Notes under the pieces: generated by a model
What the model was told of the DNA's origin: nothing
Seen by the model: the letters and a program-made list of their open reading frames with translations, nothing else
Databases searched by the model: none
Shown here: piece by piece, positions 14,126 through 60,644 of the stretch
Layout: each line of letters opens with the position of its first letter
Numbering within the stretch: the stretch's first letter is position 1
Source of the DNA: an uncultured Aquimarina sp.
Lineage (GTDB): Bacteria; Bacteroidota; Bacteroidia; Flavobacteriales; Flavobacteriaceae
Direction: 5' to 3'
NCBI GenBank assembly: GCA_947493495.1
Contig: CANLRN010000003.1
Coordinates: forward strand, 83,281-147,280
DNA length: 64,000 nt
Made by a program: the position numbers and the translations under genes

Positions 14126-14998
14126 CTAATTTTTAATAAATTCCTCGCTAACTGCCCATTCATAAAATCGATCTAACCAGTGATCAGATGGAAATCCTCG
14201 TTTCCAAAAACTAAATCCGTGGCCTCCTTTAGTATATAAATGGATTCCTGTTTTTACTCCAGCAGTATGGAACCGATTAAATAATTCTGTAAAAATAGTA
14301 GCATCAATTAGTGCATCATTTGCAGCAGCAATAAATAGGGTAGGAGCAGTATCCTTATTTGGTTTAGGGTCAATCAGATCAGTTCCTGGATATACAGGCA
14401 CTATAAAATTAGGTGTATTCTCTTTAGTACATTCATTGACTACTCCAAAAGCAACAACACCCCCAGCAGAGAAGCCCATAAACCCAATTTTAGTTGGATC
14501 AATATTTAATTTTTTTGAATTTTTGCGCACATACTCAATTGCGTTTAATCCATCATTTACAGCATATGGAACTACTTTCTGGGTAATACGGATGCGCTCT
14601 TCATTACTTTTTTCTAAGATGTCTACTAAGTCCTGTATACCATCTTCTCCCGTAGGAACTAATCTATATTTTAAAATAAAAGCAGTAACTCCTTTGTTGG
14701 CTAACCAAGTAGCAACCTTTCTGCCTTCACTTTCTATACTTAATGCATACATCCCACCTCCTGGTGCAATAATAACAGAAGTCCCATTCTGTTTTTCTGG
14801 ATCAGGTTGATACATAGTCAGCGTAGGGGATGAGACATTCGTAACTGCTTTTGTATTCCAAATTTTAGAGAAATACTCTTTTTCTGGATTCTTCCATTGG
14901 ATATCTTTTGGTTTTTTATGAGTAAGTTCGATAATTACTTGCGCACATAATGTAGGTATACAAAAAAACAAACTTAAGAATAGAACAATAGTTTTCAT
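14126..14998 (-). CDS. Secreted alpha/beta-hydrolase (BD-FAE/acetyl-esterase-like)
   Basis: The 290-aa protein has a signal peptide ('TIVLFLSLFFCIPTLCAQ'). The hydrolase fold shows an oxyanion motif 'IIAPGGGMYALS', nucleophile elbow 'GFSAGG', acid region 'AAANDALID' and catalytic His in 'GGHGF'. Related proteins de-esterify plant or algal polysaccharides (acetyl or feruloyl esters), which would fit the GH9 and GH16 enzymes in this window. The substrate cannot be read from sequence. A degraded second copy of the 3' end lies about 1.2 kb upstream of this minus-strand gene. Confidence 0.85.
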   Translation of the reverse strand: MKTIVLFLSLFFCIPTLCAQVIIELTHKKPKDIQWKNPEKEYFSKIWNTKAVTNVSSPTLTMYQPDPEKQNGTSVIIAPGGGMYALSIESEGRKVATWLANKGVTAFILKYRLVPTGEDGIQDLVDILEKSNEERIRITQKVVPYAVNDGLNAIEYVRKNSKKLNIDPTKIGFMGFSAGGVVAFGVVNECTKENTPNFIVPVYPGTDLIDPKPNKDTAPTLFIAAANDALIDATIFTELFNRFHTAGVKTGIHLYTKGGHGFSFWKRGFPSDHWLDRFYEWAVSEEFIKN

Positions 14999-15232: not shown

Positions 15233-15455
15233 TGAAAATAGAGAACAAATAGGTTGATATGTATAGCTTCAAGTACCTCATATGCTTTGTAATCTTAAGA
15301 CATATTTTAATAAATTCTTCGCTAATTTCCTATTCAAAAAATCGATCTAACCAATGATCAGATGAATATCTTCGTTTCCAAAAACTGATCTTAATACCCC
15401 TTTGAGTCTAATCTGTAATTAAACCCGTTTTATGCAGTAGTTTCAACACAGAATA
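15233..15455 (-). pseudogene. Decayed duplicate of the 3' end of the adjacent esterase gene
   Basis: Read on the minus strand, about 15303-15385 encodes 'SFWKRRYSSDHWLDRFFE*EISEEFIK', against 'SFWKRGFPSDHWLDRFYEWAVSEEFIK' in the intact esterase. A Trp codon has become TAG. Similarity continues into the 3' flank ('gaaaatagag', 'tagcttcaa') and weakly upstream through the 'GVKTG' region, where indels break the frame. Only the last 70 or so codons can be traced; the far boundary is approximate. It lies in the 690-bp gap before the Crp/Fnr gene. Confidence 0.85.
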
Positions 15456-29538: not shown

Positions 29539-29753
29539 CTTTAGGTAAAATCCATTTATTTACAGTAAGGTTTCTTTGAGAGACTCTAAAATAAAAACTA
29601 TATTTTCTTAATTTCAACAGTACCATTAAGGTTAGATTAAAAAAAGTGAAACGGTAATGTTTGCAGCAGTTGAAAGATGGAATATCTATCTACTACATTA
29701 GACAAGGGTTTTCTAAAAGCATCAGACTAGTTCATTACTTGTTCATATACATA

Positions 29754-41004: not shown

Positions 41005-41181
41005 TTGAACCCGCTTTATGCAATAGAAAATTTATTACATCTTGTAGCTACCGCAAATACTAACGCTGCACTGCGTTTTTTAATTTCACCATAGCCGTGC
41101 TATGCAAAAATTAAGAAAACACTAGTATTTCTTGCATCTACAAGCTTCTTGACAACCTTCTATTGCATAAAGCGGGTTGAA
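41005..41181 (+). mobile_element. MITE-like palindromic element A, copy 1 (177 bp)
   Basis: The termini TTGAACCCGCTTTATGCAATAGAA and TTCTATTGCATAAAGCGGGTTGAA are inverted repeats of 24 bp with one mismatch. The interior is also an imperfect palindrome (CTTGTAGCTACCGCAAATACT against AGTATTTCTTGCATCTACAAG), so the whole unit can fold as one hairpin. The reverse complement recurs at 56510-56686 with 4 differences in 177 bases. No coding capacity; no transposase in this window. Confidence 0.85.
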
Positions 41182-45775: not shown

Positions 45776-45922
45776 GATAATTTATTTTAAGATGCAATTA
45801 TACTAAATTAAGACAATGCAAGTATTCTGCAATTTATATTAACGTTTTAGTAACTATAGAAAGTTGTTTTCACAACGAAAAACAATGAGTTCTAAGAGTT
45901 AAAATAAAAAAGTACAGAAGTT

Positions 45923-45942
45923 TAGCATAAAGCGGGTTTAAC
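45923..45942 (-). repeat. Solo end of MITE-like element A
   Basis: TAGCATAAAGCGGGTTTAAC matches the terminal inverted repeat of element A (copy 2 end TATAGCATAAAGCGGGTTCAAC in reverse) over about 18 bases. No second end is seen within 200 bp. Could be a decayed remnant. Confidence 0.45.
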
Positions 45943-53613: not shown

Positions 53614-54180
53614 ATGAGAAAAATAAATTTACTAATTAGCATCATTATACTTGCAGTAACAATGACAGAAGCACAAGTCAAAGTTGGGGATGCCACACTA
53701 CCTAGTACAGTGACATTTAATGATGAAAATCTAATAATTAATGGAGCTGGCTTAAGAGAAAAGTTCTTTTTTGATATCTATGCAGGTGGATTATACCTGA
53801 AGAAAAAGAATAACAAAGCTAATGCGATTGCTGCTTCAGATGAAACCATGGCAATAAAACTACATATATTATCTGGTATGATGTCTAGAAGTAAAATGGA
53901 ATCTGCCTTAAGAGATGGTTTTAAAAAAGCAACGAATAATAATACCAAAGCTTTAGATAAAAGAATAAATCGTTTTGTAGGATACATCAAAGAAGAGATC
54001 GAAGAAGGACAAATATATGATATTGTATATGAAAAAGGAAAAGGAAGTGTCATATATAAAAATGGTGTCGAAAAAGGATTTGTAGAAGGCTTGGATTTTA
54101 AACAAGCTTTATTTAATATATGGATAGGTGATAAACCTGCTGATAAAGGTCTTAAAAATGAAATGTTAGGTGATTATTAG
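53614..54180 (+). CDS. Secreted chalcone-isomerase-like protein, paralogue 1
   Basis: The 188-aa protein has a signal peptide ('LISIIILAVTMTEAQ') and a chalcone-isomerase-like domain (PF16036 type): 'VKVGDATLPSTVTFNDENLIINGAGLREKFFFDIYAGGLYLKKK', 'DETMAIKLHILSGMMSRSKMESALRDGFKKATNNN'. Bacterial members are not known to isomerise flavonoids. It is the first of three tandem paralogues. It lies 35 bp after the YihY gene. Confidence 0.85.
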   Translation: MRKINLLISIIILAVTMTEAQVKVGDATLPSTVTFNDENLIINGAGLREKFFFDIYAGGLYLKKKNNKANAIAASDETMAIKLHILSGMMSRSKMESALRDGFKKATNNNTKALDKRINRFVGYIKEEIEEGQIYDIVYEKGKGSVIYKNGVEKGFVEGLDFKQALFNIWIGDKPADKGLKNEMLGDY

Positions 54181-54315
54181 GATGAAAGGATTGTTTTTAA
54201 CGATTAAATGTAAGTTTTTACCTTTTTTGCTATGCTTGCATAGTGAAAAATAGTATATTCGCACAAAAATAATCTTAATTACTAATTTACCCCCAATAAT
54301 ATCCTTAATTGAAAA

Positions 54316-54879
54316 ATGAAAAAAACTATTTTAGTATTAATTGCATTAGTTTCTTTAACTGTTACTAAAGCGCAAATTAGAGTTGGAAAAGCTATATTAC
54401 CATATGAAGAAACTTATGGAGGAGTAGAACTTAAATTAAATGGAGCTGGAATAAGAGAAATGTTATGGATTGATCTTTATGCAGGTGGACTTTACCTAAA
54501 GAAAAAAAGTAAAAATCCACTAGAAATATTAGATGCAGATGAAACTATGTTCATAAAACTCAATATAGTCTCAGATCTAGTGACTCAAAAAAAAATGATT
54601 AAAGCTGTAAAAGATGGTTTTAGAAAAGCAACTTTTGGCAATACAAAATCTCTAGATGAACGAATTAACAAGTTCATAAAATTCTTTAATGAACCTATCA
54701 TAAAAAATGATATTTTTGATATCGTGTACATAAAAGATGTAGGAGTTAAAGCTTTTAAAAATGAAAAAGAACTCGGAGTGATAGAAGGAAGAGATTTTAA
54801 ATATGCTCTCTTTAAAATATGGCTGGGAGATGAACCTGCTAGTGAAGCTATTAAAAAGGGGATGCTAGGGTTGCAGTAA
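54316..54879 (+). CDS. Secreted chalcone-isomerase-like protein, paralogue 2
   Basis: This 187-aa signal-peptide protein ('TILVLIALVSLTVTKAQ') aligns with its neighbours throughout: 'IRVGKAILPYEETYGGVELKLNGAGIREMLWIDLYAGGLYLKKKS', 'EGRDFKYALFKIWLGDEPASEAIKKGMLG'. The C-terminal block is almost identical to paralogue 3, so these two share a later duplication than paralogue 1. Confidence 0.85.
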   Translation: MKKTILVLIALVSLTVTKAQIRVGKAILPYEETYGGVELKLNGAGIREMLWIDLYAGGLYLKKKSKNPLEILDADETMFIKLNIVSDLVTQKKMIKAVKDGFRKATFGNTKSLDERINKFIKFFNEPIIKNDIFDIVYIKDVGVKAFKNEKELGVIEGRDFKYALFKIWLGDEPASEAIKKGMLGLQ

Positions 54880-54954
54880 TTTAATTAAAGTGTTTTATCC
54901 AATAAAAAAATATTAATTAATAGCTATTTAAGCTATACAATATGGGCTATAACT

Positions 54955-54990
54955 AAAACTATCTGTATGTCTATTATAGATAGTTTTTTT
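54955..54990 (+). terminator. Intrinsic terminator after chalcone-isomerase-like paralogue 2
   Basis: AAAACTATCT and AGATAGTTTT pair around a 13-nt loop and are followed by a T-run. Confidence 0.8.
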
Positions 54991-55053
54991 CTGCCAAATA
55001 TCTAATTTGGTATAAGGCGTGATTGAAAAATAACTATTATAACTATTCTATAT

Positions 55054-55485
55054 ATGTCATTTATAAAAAAAATAGTATGTCTTGTATGCATATTCCTAGC
55101 AATAAATATACAAGCACAACAAGAAATAATCGGTAAATGGAAAACCATAGATGATACTACGGGAGAAGCTAGATCTATTGTAGATATATATACTAAATCA
55201 GGTAAAATTTATGGCAAGATCATCAAAATATTAAAAGAGTCTGATAGAAAACAACTATGTACAGAATGTAAAGGTTCCAACTATAATAAACCTGTAGAGG
55301 GTATGGTCATTATCAATGGATTAGAAAAAAATGGCACTGAATATAAAAATGGAACAATTCTAGATCCAGAGAATGGAAAAGTATATACGTGTAAAATATG
55401 GGTGGATAAAGATAAACCCACATTATTGAATGTGAGAGGGTATATAGCTTTTTTATATCGAACTCAAGAATGGGTTAGAGATTAA
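55054..55485 (+). CDS. DUF2147 family secreted protein
   Basis: The 143-aa protein has a signal peptide ('IVCLVCIFLAINIQAQQ') and a DUF2147 lipocalin-like beta-barrel: 'IIGKWKTIDDTTGEARSIVDIYTKSGKIYGKI', 'CTECKGSNYNKPVEGMVIINGLEKNG', 'GTILDPENGKVYTCKIWV', 'LNVRGYIAFLYRTQEWVR'. Function of DUF2147 is unknown. It is inserted between chalcone-isomerase-like paralogues 2 and 3. Confidence 0.88.
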   Translation: MSFIKKIVCLVCIFLAINIQAQQEIIGKWKTIDDTTGEARSIVDIYTKSGKIYGKIIKILKESDRKQLCTECKGSNYNKPVEGMVIINGLEKNGTEYKNGTILDPENGKVYTCKIWVDKDKPTLLNVRGYIAFLYRTQEWVRD

Positions 55486-55526
55486 TTTTTATCAAGTGTA
55501 TTGATATAACTTCTAAAAATTGTTAA

Positions 55527-55563
55527 ACATTTATAAGCATTCAGTTTTCAGTCATAAGCTTTT
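55527..55563 (+). repeat. Dispersed 37-bp repeat D, copy 2
   Basis: ACATTTATAAGCATTCAGTT and the next 17 bases match the reverse complement of 51134-51170 at 34 of 37 positions. A further partial unit 'ataagctttcagtccttag' lies about 90 bp downstream. The 339-bp gap 55486-55824 holds no gene. Confidence 0.6.
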
Positions 55564-55824
55564 AATTTTTTAATAATAGCTAATGGCAAACTACTATAAG
55601 CTGATATCGATGTAGCTTACTTTAGTCAGATTTAAAAAACCTATAAGCTTTCAGTCCTTAGTGGTTTGGCTAAACTTTTTTATTCTAACATAAAAACAGA
55701 GAATGTTGTATTATATCGAACTGAACAAGCATAGGCTTTCGTGTTTGTAAAATTTTAACAATTTAGCTGTTAGGTTGTTAATTTTTTCGCAACTAAGCTC
55801 TTGTAATGTAAAAAACTAATTGAA

Positions 55825-56388
55825 ATGAAAAATATATTTACTTTGATAATTGTATTGGCTATCAGTTCTTTTTCGTTAGCTCAAATACGAGTAGGAAATG
55901 CTGTAGTACCATATAAAGTTAATTTTGAAGGGGAAGAATTAACCCTTAATGGGGCAGGAGTCCGTAAAGTATTAGGAATAGAAACATATTCTGGAGGCTT
56001 GTATACTAAGAACAAGTATTCTGATGATCGAGCTGTTCTAGATGCTGATGAGAGTATGTCTATCCGTTTAGTAATCAACTCAAAAAAGGTAACAAATAAG
56101 AGAATGGAAAAAATCTTTAGAAAAGGTTTTGATGATGCAATGTTTGGAAACACAGAAAGCCTTGATACTAGAATTAATAATTTTGTTGAGTTATTTGGCA
56201 GTAGTGTTAAAATCAATGATTTTTTTGATTTAGTATACATAAAAGGAAAAGGGATAAGAACTTTTAAGAACGGAGAAGAAGTAGGTTATATAGAAGGAAG
56301 AGATTTTAAATATGCACTCTTCAAAATATGGTTAGGTGATGAACCAGCTTGTAAGTATATAAAAGGAGGGATGTTAGGACAAAGTTAG
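55825..56388 (+). CDS. Secreted chalcone-isomerase-like protein, paralogue 3
   Basis: This 187-aa protein has a signal peptide ('IFTLIIVLAISSFSLAQ') and the same domain as its two neighbours: 'IRVGNAVVPYKVNFEGEELTLNGAGVRKVLGIETYSGGLYTKNK', 'EGRDFKYALFKIWLGDEPACKYIKGGMLG'. The aromatic or acidic residues shared by all three copies are candidates for a ligand pocket. Confidence 0.85.
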   Translation: MKNIFTLIIVLAISSFSLAQIRVGNAVVPYKVNFEGEELTLNGAGVRKVLGIETYSGGLYTKNKYSDDRAVLDADESMSIRLVINSKKVTNKRMEKIFRKGFDDAMFGNTESLDTRINNFVELFGSSVKINDFFDLVYIKGKGIRTFKNGEEVGYIEGRDFKYALFKIWLGDEPACKYIKGGMLGQS

Positions 56389-56456: not shown

Positions 56457-56498
56457 TTAGTGATACTCTGATTTGAAAAGTTTCGCAGCAATGCCTTC
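56457..56498. repeat. Dispersed 42-bp repeat, copy 2
   Basis: Matches 15142-15183 at 36 of 42 positions in the same orientation. It lies between the terminator and MITE-like element A copy 2. Confidence 0.6.
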
Positions 56499-56509
56499 AA
56501 ATTAGATAG

Positions 56510-56686
56510 TTGAACCCGCTTTATGCTATAGAAGGTTGTCAAGAAGCTTGTAGATGCAAGAAATACTAGTGTTTTCTTAATTTTTGCATAGCACCGCTAT
56601 GGTGAAATTAAAAAACGCAGTGCAGCGTTAGTATTTGCGGTAGCTACAAGATGTAATAAATTTTCTATTGCATAAAGCGGGTTGAA
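56510..56686 (-). mobile_element. MITE-like palindromic element A, copy 2 (177 bp)
   Basis: Reverse complement of 41005-41181 with 4 differences and no indel. Terminal inverted repeats begin TTGAACCCGCTTTATGC. The outermost GTTGAAC appears at both edges and may be part of the element or a target duplication. It lies in the 839-bp gene-free stretch 56389-57227. Confidence 0.85.
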
Positions 56687-56740
56687 CTAATACCGCTGTT
56701 TACTGAGCTCGTTTCAGTATCTAGCGGGATCTTAGGTCTA

Positions 56741-56903
56741 ATACGATTTACGAATAAAAATTTCGCATCTAATGACATTCTTTTTCTACTATATTTTCTT
56801 CATAAAATGAAACAATAGCTATGGCTATTCTTTAATTTGATTCATCAATCTAGCGAAAAATCCTTGCCATTATTTTTACGAAATTCTCATCCGTAAATCG
56901 TAT
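56741..56903 (+). mobile_element. MITE-like palindromic element B, copy 1 (163 bp)
   Basis: The ends ATACGATTTACGAATAAAAATTTCG and CGAAATTCTCATCCGTAAATCGTAT are imperfect inverted repeats of about 25 bp. The centre AATAGCTATGGCTATT and its flanks are also self-complementary. The reverse complement recurs at 60426-60588 with 5 differences. No ORF. Confidence 0.85.
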
Positions 56904-59808: not shown

Positions 59809-60426
59809 ATGTCGAGTAGTAGAAATAAAGAACTTTTATCATTACATTCTCAGATAGAAAATGCAGAAATCGAGCAAAGAAAACTTGAAGATCTTCTGTA
59901 TGAAAAATCCATACAGCTTAAGAGAAATAAAACGGCAACATTTTTATTAAAAGTAATATGTGTTATACTTCTGCTAACTACCATAACATGTATACTATAT
60001 ACGATATATTGGACGAATGATGATAAGAATCAACCTGTAGTAGTTGATACTATAGAATTTAGTGCTTTAAAATCAGAAATAAATTCTTTGAAAAATCAGT
60101 TAGATCTAATGCAAAAAGAACAAACCAATCTTAAAGAGCTGAATGATATATATTTATATAGGAAACTGATAAAAAAAGATACTATATATTCTGTACAGAT
60201 TCAATCGCTAACAAAAGCTAAGGTAGGAGCAATTTCAAAAAAATATGTAAATGCTAAGTTTTATAATGACACTTCCTACTTTAAATTTAGCATTGGCATT
60301 TTTGAGACATTGCAAGAAGCGCAAGAGTTTAAAAAAACTCTAACTAATTCTGGTGTGATAAAAAAAAGTATTTTTGTGATATCCTATAAAGATGGTAAAA
60401 GAATTCGAATCGAAAATGCTAATTAA
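59809..60426 (+). CDS. Coiled-coil membrane-anchored protein with SPOR-like C-terminus, paralogue 2
   Basis: The 205-aa protein shares with its upstream neighbour the coiled coil ('NKELLSLHSQIENAEIEQRKLEDLLYEKSIQLKRNK') and one membrane helix ('FLLKVICVILLLTTITCILYTIYW'). The last 75 residues ('DTIYSVQIQSLTKAKVGAISKKYVNAKFYNDTSYFKFSIGIFETLQEAQEFKKTLTNSG') look like a SPOR domain, which binds denuded peptidoglycan at division sites. The stop codon's last base is the first base of MITE-like element B copy 2. Confidence 0.75.
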   Translation: MSSSRNKELLSLHSQIENAEIEQRKLEDLLYEKSIQLKRNKTATFLLKVICVILLLTTITCILYTIYWTNDDKNQPVVVDTIEFSALKSEINSLKNQLDLMQKEQTNLKELNDIYLYRKLIKKDTIYSVQIQSLTKAKVGAISKKYVNAKFYNDTSYFKFSIGIFETLQEAQEFKKTLTNSGVIKKSIFVISYKDGKRIRIENAN

Positions 60427-60588
60427 TACGATTTACGGATGAGAATTTCGTAAAAATAATGGCAAGTATTTTTCTCTAGATTGATGAATCAAATTAAAGA
60501 ATAGCCATAGCTATTGTTTCATTTTATGAAGAAAATATAGTAGAAAAAGAATATCATTAGATGCGAAATTTTTATTCATAAATTGTAT
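60426..60588 (-). mobile_element. MITE-like palindromic element B, copy 2 (163 bp)
   Basis: Reverse complement of 56741-56903 with 5 differences. It abuts the stop codon of the SPOR-like gene, so it may have replaced that gene's 3' flank or last codons. Confidence 0.85.
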
Positions 60589-60644
60589 AAGAGCTGCTGT
60601 ATCTAAATTAATAGGAGTAAGAATATAGATTTAGTTCTATTATA

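Follow-up and report, generated by a model that had tools for sequence, protein, structure and literature searches.

The window, a 64,000-nt stretch from a genome of the genus Aquimarina (5.02 Mb in 333 contigs), carries two copies of a short palindromic element in opposite orientation (Table 1). The original prediction had described them as a MITE of 177 bp whose two copies differ at 4 of 177 positions, and this count was confirmed. Of the four differences, two fall on the central N of the TTNAA target duplication and come from the inversion of one copy (TTGAA becomes TTCAA); the copies proper differ at 2 of 167 positions. As the 5-bp flanks are target duplication, the mobile unit is 167 bp and not 177. 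The predicted 24-bp terminal inverted repeats likewise proved real but shorter, with 19 bp of repeat and the remaining 5 bp belonging to the duplication; the repeat is exact in copy 1 (19/19) and matches at 18/19 positions in copy 2. No open reading frame of 80 aa or more is listed within the 167 bp. The element folds end to end, as had been claimed, at -36.8 kcal/mol as DNA, where dinucleotide-shuffled sequences give -14.9 +/- 2.8 (z = -7.8; none of the 200 was as stable), but as a whole-element palindrome it is imperfect, the arms being about 67% alike.

Table 1. Coordinates, in the window, of the MITE copies and associated features
Feature	Coordinates	Strand	Remarks
MITE copy 1	41010..41176	+	167 bp, arm A first; covariance model R1 full length, 187.7 bits, E 1.6e-35
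MITE copy 2	56515..56681	-	167 bp; R1 full length, 185.1 bits, E 5.4e-35; inverted with respect to copy 1
Copy 1 left target duplication TTGAA	41005..41009	.	flanks identical in 26 of 30 copies
Copy 1 right target duplication TTGAA	41177..41181	.	flanks identical in 26 of 30 copies
Copy 1 left-end terminal inverted repeat CCCGCTTTATGCAATAGAA	41010..41028	+	complementary to 41158-41176, 19/19
Copy 1 right-end terminal inverted repeat	41158..41176	-	pairs with 41010-41028
Copy 2 left target duplication TTGAA	56510..56514	.	single TTGAA in empty host-repeat copies
Copy 2 right target duplication TTGAA	56682..56686	.	single TTGAA in empty host-repeat copies
Repeat R hosting copy 2	56457..56743	+	about 115 bp without the insert
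Decayed relative of the same MITE	29552..29707	-	R1 match, 48.1 bits, E 1.8e-7

A genome-wide search revealed about 50 copies in all: BLAST with copy 1 matched 41 places and the covariance model found at least 52 full-length copies, with contig ends falling inside copies in several cases. The median pairwise difference between copies is 4/167, and some copies are identical to the consensus. Among 30 copies examined in this genome, the 5-bp flanks were identical left and right in 26, reading TTAAA in 13, TTTAA in 8, TTGAA in 3, TTCAA in 1 and CTTAC in 1. The 5-bp flanks are a target duplication with a preference for TTNAA; by an arithmetic estimate, the chance of 25 of 26 matches at N from base composition (about 0.39 per copy) is about 1 in 1e9.

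Empty sites were of two kinds. Copy 2 splits the unrelated repeat R into parts matching positions 1-59 and 53-115 of the query, while uninterrupted R copies elsewhere match 1-115; eight empty R copies in the same orientation are continuous and carry TTGAA, or a variant differing at one base, once at the insertion point. The second kind is a LytTR-domain gene split by a further copy (G000:C61:3192-3368); the flanks of this copy, joined with one TTCAA, give a LytTR domain that is continuous over the junction. Both kinds of site show that insertion was precise and made a 5-bp duplication. Paralogous sites were used because the orthologous flanks in sister species are too diverged, mostly only yebC being alignable. 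The short length, lack of a transposase gene, inverted-repeat ends, target duplications, empty sites and copy number of about 50 all make the element a MITE, and the duplications, both kinds of empty site and the copy number bear out the predicted recent movement. The contrary pattern, both copies at the same sites in distant relatives and no other copies, was not what we found. The inverted pair might also flip the 15-kb segment between 41176 and 56515, as the original prediction had suggested; the one draft assembly at hand shows a single arrangement. A search for carriage of the MITE on plasmids and phages gave no DNA match. Repeat R itself is about 115 bp long, contains internal hairpins and matches about 38 places in the genome (window 56457-56743; L147, L150-L154, L159 and L160).

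By covariance model, the MITE is present in 38 of 55 Aquimarina genomes, mostly at 165-168 bp. Outside Aquimarina, whole-model homologues were detected in 14 of 295 genomes of the class, in 11 genera, with a first-look filter limiting sensitivity; they are mostly 160-182 bp long and many have matched 5-bp flanks. Sampled genomes from other genera of the same family gave no homologue with the covariance model after the first-look filter. This patchy distribution suggests horizontal spread or repeated loss, within the sensitivity that the filter allows. Rather than a species-specific remnant, the MITE is a long-lived folded sequence found across the genus and patchily in the class.

The original prediction had reasoned that the MITE, with no transposase of its own, is mobilised in trans or by a REP-like process, and had proposed a search for an insertion sequence (IS) with similar ends. 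The search returned an IS1380-family element whose right end, in a sister species, is identical to the MITE end at 18 of 19 positions (1 of 19 bases differs between CCCGCATTATGCAATAGAA and CCCGCTTTATGCAATAGAA) and whose target matches, with a transposase that is frameshifted in the genome of the window and intact in that relative, which supports mobilisation in trans. The genome's own element, on contig C130, is flanked by TTAAA on both sides, has the left end CCTGCATTATGCAATAGGA, contains a nested palindromic insertion and carries a transposase frame broken by a frameshift; no intact transposase of this IS1380 subgroup was found in this genome. In a sister species (G015) the transposase is intact, with an open frame of 438 aa (434 aa from the first ATG), a score of 253.7 bits with the NCBIfam IS1380 model (cut-off 180) and the motif YNTRADCENRIKELK, a Y-R-E-K signature of the kind that marks IS4-like DDE transposases. 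The G015 element ends in CCTGAATTATGCGATAGGA on the left and CCCGCATTATGCAATAGAA on the right, and its flanks, TTAAA and TTTAA, disagree at N; matched TTNAA flanks surround the IS in L117, L118, L119, L121 and C130. Elements of this subgroup, about 1.39 kb long and with matched TTNAA flanks, occur in Algoriphagus, a Chitinophagaceae MAG, Aquimarina and a Verrucomicrobiaceae MAG. The right end of the Algoriphagus element is identical to the MITE ends of a member from the class (L238), and an Aliarcobacter plasmid relative of the IS has ATAAT on both sides.

Both MITE ends resemble the right end of the IS. In L070, a hybrid MITE of the window's genome, one terminus resembles the left end of the IS and the opposite one that of the present MITE. 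An IS copy of A. muelleri lies directly beside, or breaks, a MITE of the same family (L129). The four Aquimarina genomes with the IS, intact or not, hold at least 52, 47, 30 and 17 MITE copies, against a median of 4 in the rest (p about 0.001, phylogeny ignored); most MITE-bearing Aquimarina genomes are without this IS. By inspection, the MITE interior showed no resemblance to the IS end regions beyond the termini, and it appears not to be a deletion remnant of the IS. Other candidate partners were rejected: PF13701 matches in five genomes (G006, G008, G037, G050 and G010) have no end pair of TTNAA followed by CC..TTATGC nearby, and the ORF at 14126-14998, close to an end-like sequence at 15419, looks by eye like a secreted hydrolase-like protein and not a transposase. 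Two further observations concern related elements. A palindromic insertion is nested in the IS1380 copy (L065, about 1503-1638), with ends CAATGTCGTTAAGTTAAGC and a flanking 10-bp direct repeat ATAATTCAGG. A sister subfamily in the same genome (L038-L045, in G000) is also 167 bp long with TTNAA flanks, and its ends, CCCGGTTTATGCGTTAGGA, resemble the right end of the A. muelleri IS, CCCAGTTTATGCGTTAGAA.

We propose, with a probability of roughly 0.87, that the window copies are a recently moved 167-bp MITE using an IS1380-family transposase in trans, with an interior that is a long-lived folded sequence. The transposase would recognise 19-bp ends of the CCCG.TTATGCAWTAGAA type, insertion at TTNAA would duplicate those five bases, and the complementarity of the arms would serve, or arise from, a DNA hairpin or cruciform. 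On sequence grounds, the putative dependence on IS1380 is well supported, and we infer that an IS1380 transposase was the probable mover of these particular copies. As the transposase in this genome is found only in frameshifted form, they would have moved before it broke, through a copy that the assembly lacks, or through a passing IS.

The whole-element fold and the many intergenic copies could also suit the REP-like process that the original prediction had offered as a second route, or an IS200/IS605-type (HUH) transposition of the hairpin as a single strand. HUH elements make no target duplication. The copies here have defined inverted-repeat ends that match a DDE-type IS1380 element, a 5-bp duplication in nearly all cases and empty sites that contradict single-strand transposition, making such a process extremely improbable. 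REP and BIME palindromes are alike in forming many intergenic copies, but neither target duplications nor TIR-type ends belong to REPs, and this MITE has both.

Structure-blind alignments were made of 14 Aquimarina elements and, separately, of 14 non-Aquimarina elements, and the two independent alignments gave the same fold. Two-sided changes were present in 24 of 57 pairs in the former and in 31 of 46 pairs in the latter. The covariation values were reached by 0 of 500 shuffles in either alignment, a control weakened by the relatedness of the sequences; sliding the partner by one column, a control without that weakness, abolished the signal. The interior helices covary, and not the terminal repeats alone. 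Misoriented copies were dismissed as a source of false covariation, since a perfectly paired site is identical after reverse complementation. A conserved, long-lived DNA hairpin is supported, with a putative function.

The same stable, covarying fold might belong to an RNA, if copies near gene ends were transcribed and acted as a terminator, stabiliser or small RNA; the covariation would then come from selection on that RNA, with mobility incidental. In line with this, of the two possible RNAs the one from the complementary (B-to-A) strand has the more stable fold in 35 of 35 elements, and in a larger set the mismatches on it comprise 74 G-U and 29 A-C (29 G-U and 74 A-C on the other strand). 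RNA helices normally tolerate G-U pairs, whereas here G-U pairs fell below the shuffled expectation in both alignments (13 vs 31 and 11 vs 40), as did A-C (20 vs 40 and 18 vs 49). As G-U is depleted about as much as A-C, the counts suggest that complementarity is kept at the DNA level and not as RNA structure, either by a hairpin or cruciform that may aid transposition or by arms that may correct each other. The copies show no preferred orientation towards the nearest incoming gene (13 vs 11), and no Rfam family matched at the gathering score (best 24.2 bits vs 80 needed). We consider the RNA hairpin improbable; a mild RNA-like bias on the B-to-A strand is possible. Mutual correction of the arms, by template switching or gene conversion in the palindrome, would generate covariation with no selection. 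Watson-Crick double changes without G-U intermediates fit such a process, as does an end position at which window copy 2 has a change in a single arm and L014 and L026 have one in each arm. Yet the arms are just about 67% alike, and unpaired bulges and loops keep their positions, so any correction must be partial, and we regard it as a somewhat unlikely source of the covariation.

The reading of an IS1380-mobilised MITE can be carried further, to a non-autonomous element older than Aquimarina whose entire DNA hairpin is under selection, as extrusion, in the form of a cruciform or of a single-stranded hairpin, would be needed before the IS1380 transposase could excise or insert it. This extension is tentative and, in our judgement, rather unlikely; if true, it would explain both the Watson-Crick covariation without G-U tolerance and the survival of the MITE where the IS is mostly missing.

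Among known systems, the IS1380 family (ISEcp1, ISPme1 and, here, the elements of about 1.39 kb from Bacteroidota and Verrucomicrobiota) is alike in its 5-bp target duplication, described for ISEcp1 (PMC2887853). The Bacteroidota subgroup also has the TTNAA target and a nearly identical right end in common with the MITE, which differs in having no transposase gene, two ends like the IS right end and an unrelated interior. We place the MITE with IS1380 because ends and target match. IS1380 is regarded as a relative of the piggyBac transposons of eukaryotes, which have a TTAA-like target and CCC ends in common with this MITE, although the piggyBac target is the 4-bp TTAA and that of the MITE has five bases, TTNAA, the central one being variable. 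MITEPye1 of Paracoccus depends on IS1182 and is present in 1-3 copies (PMC11578231). It resembles this MITE in being short, non-coding and intergenic, with terminal inverted repeats, target duplications and a whole-element stem-loop; the present MITE differs in its putative dependence on IS1380, its roughly 50 copies, its span of a genus and scattered genera of the class, its nearly constant length and its covarying interior. Unlike a plain deletion derivative, it has a non-IS interior, conserved with covariation across genera. Our literature search, with most subscription journals and ISfinder outside it, found no IS1380 MITE in Bacteroidota and no Aquimarina MITE, and IS1380 goes unmentioned in a 2024 review of prokaryotic MITEs (PMC10969869).

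The usual view of MITEs is one of short-lived debris that shares matching ends. The present MITE retains a nearly constant length and a covarying interior fold across many genera, and the transposase on which it would depend is mostly missing where it persists. Whether the fold matters for movement, and how a gene-less transposon outlives its helper, become testable questions. Counting G-U against A-C mismatches may, more generally, distinguish DNA-level from RNA-level palindromes.

The window has other features as well. Lone ends resembling TTNAA followed by CCCG(C/T)TTTATGC lie at 15419-15442 and 45918-45941, with no partner end nearby and no covariance-model match at either place. About 1.2 kb from the 3' end of the gene at 14126-14998 lies a second copy of it, an 82-bp fragment with 89% similarity (14131-14212 and 15305-15386). 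A second palindromic family of 170 bp, unlike the MITE in sequence, has inverted copies that are 96% alike (56734-56903 and 60426-60595), and three chalcone-isomerase-like genes (Pfam Chalcone_3) stand in tandem at 53614-56388.
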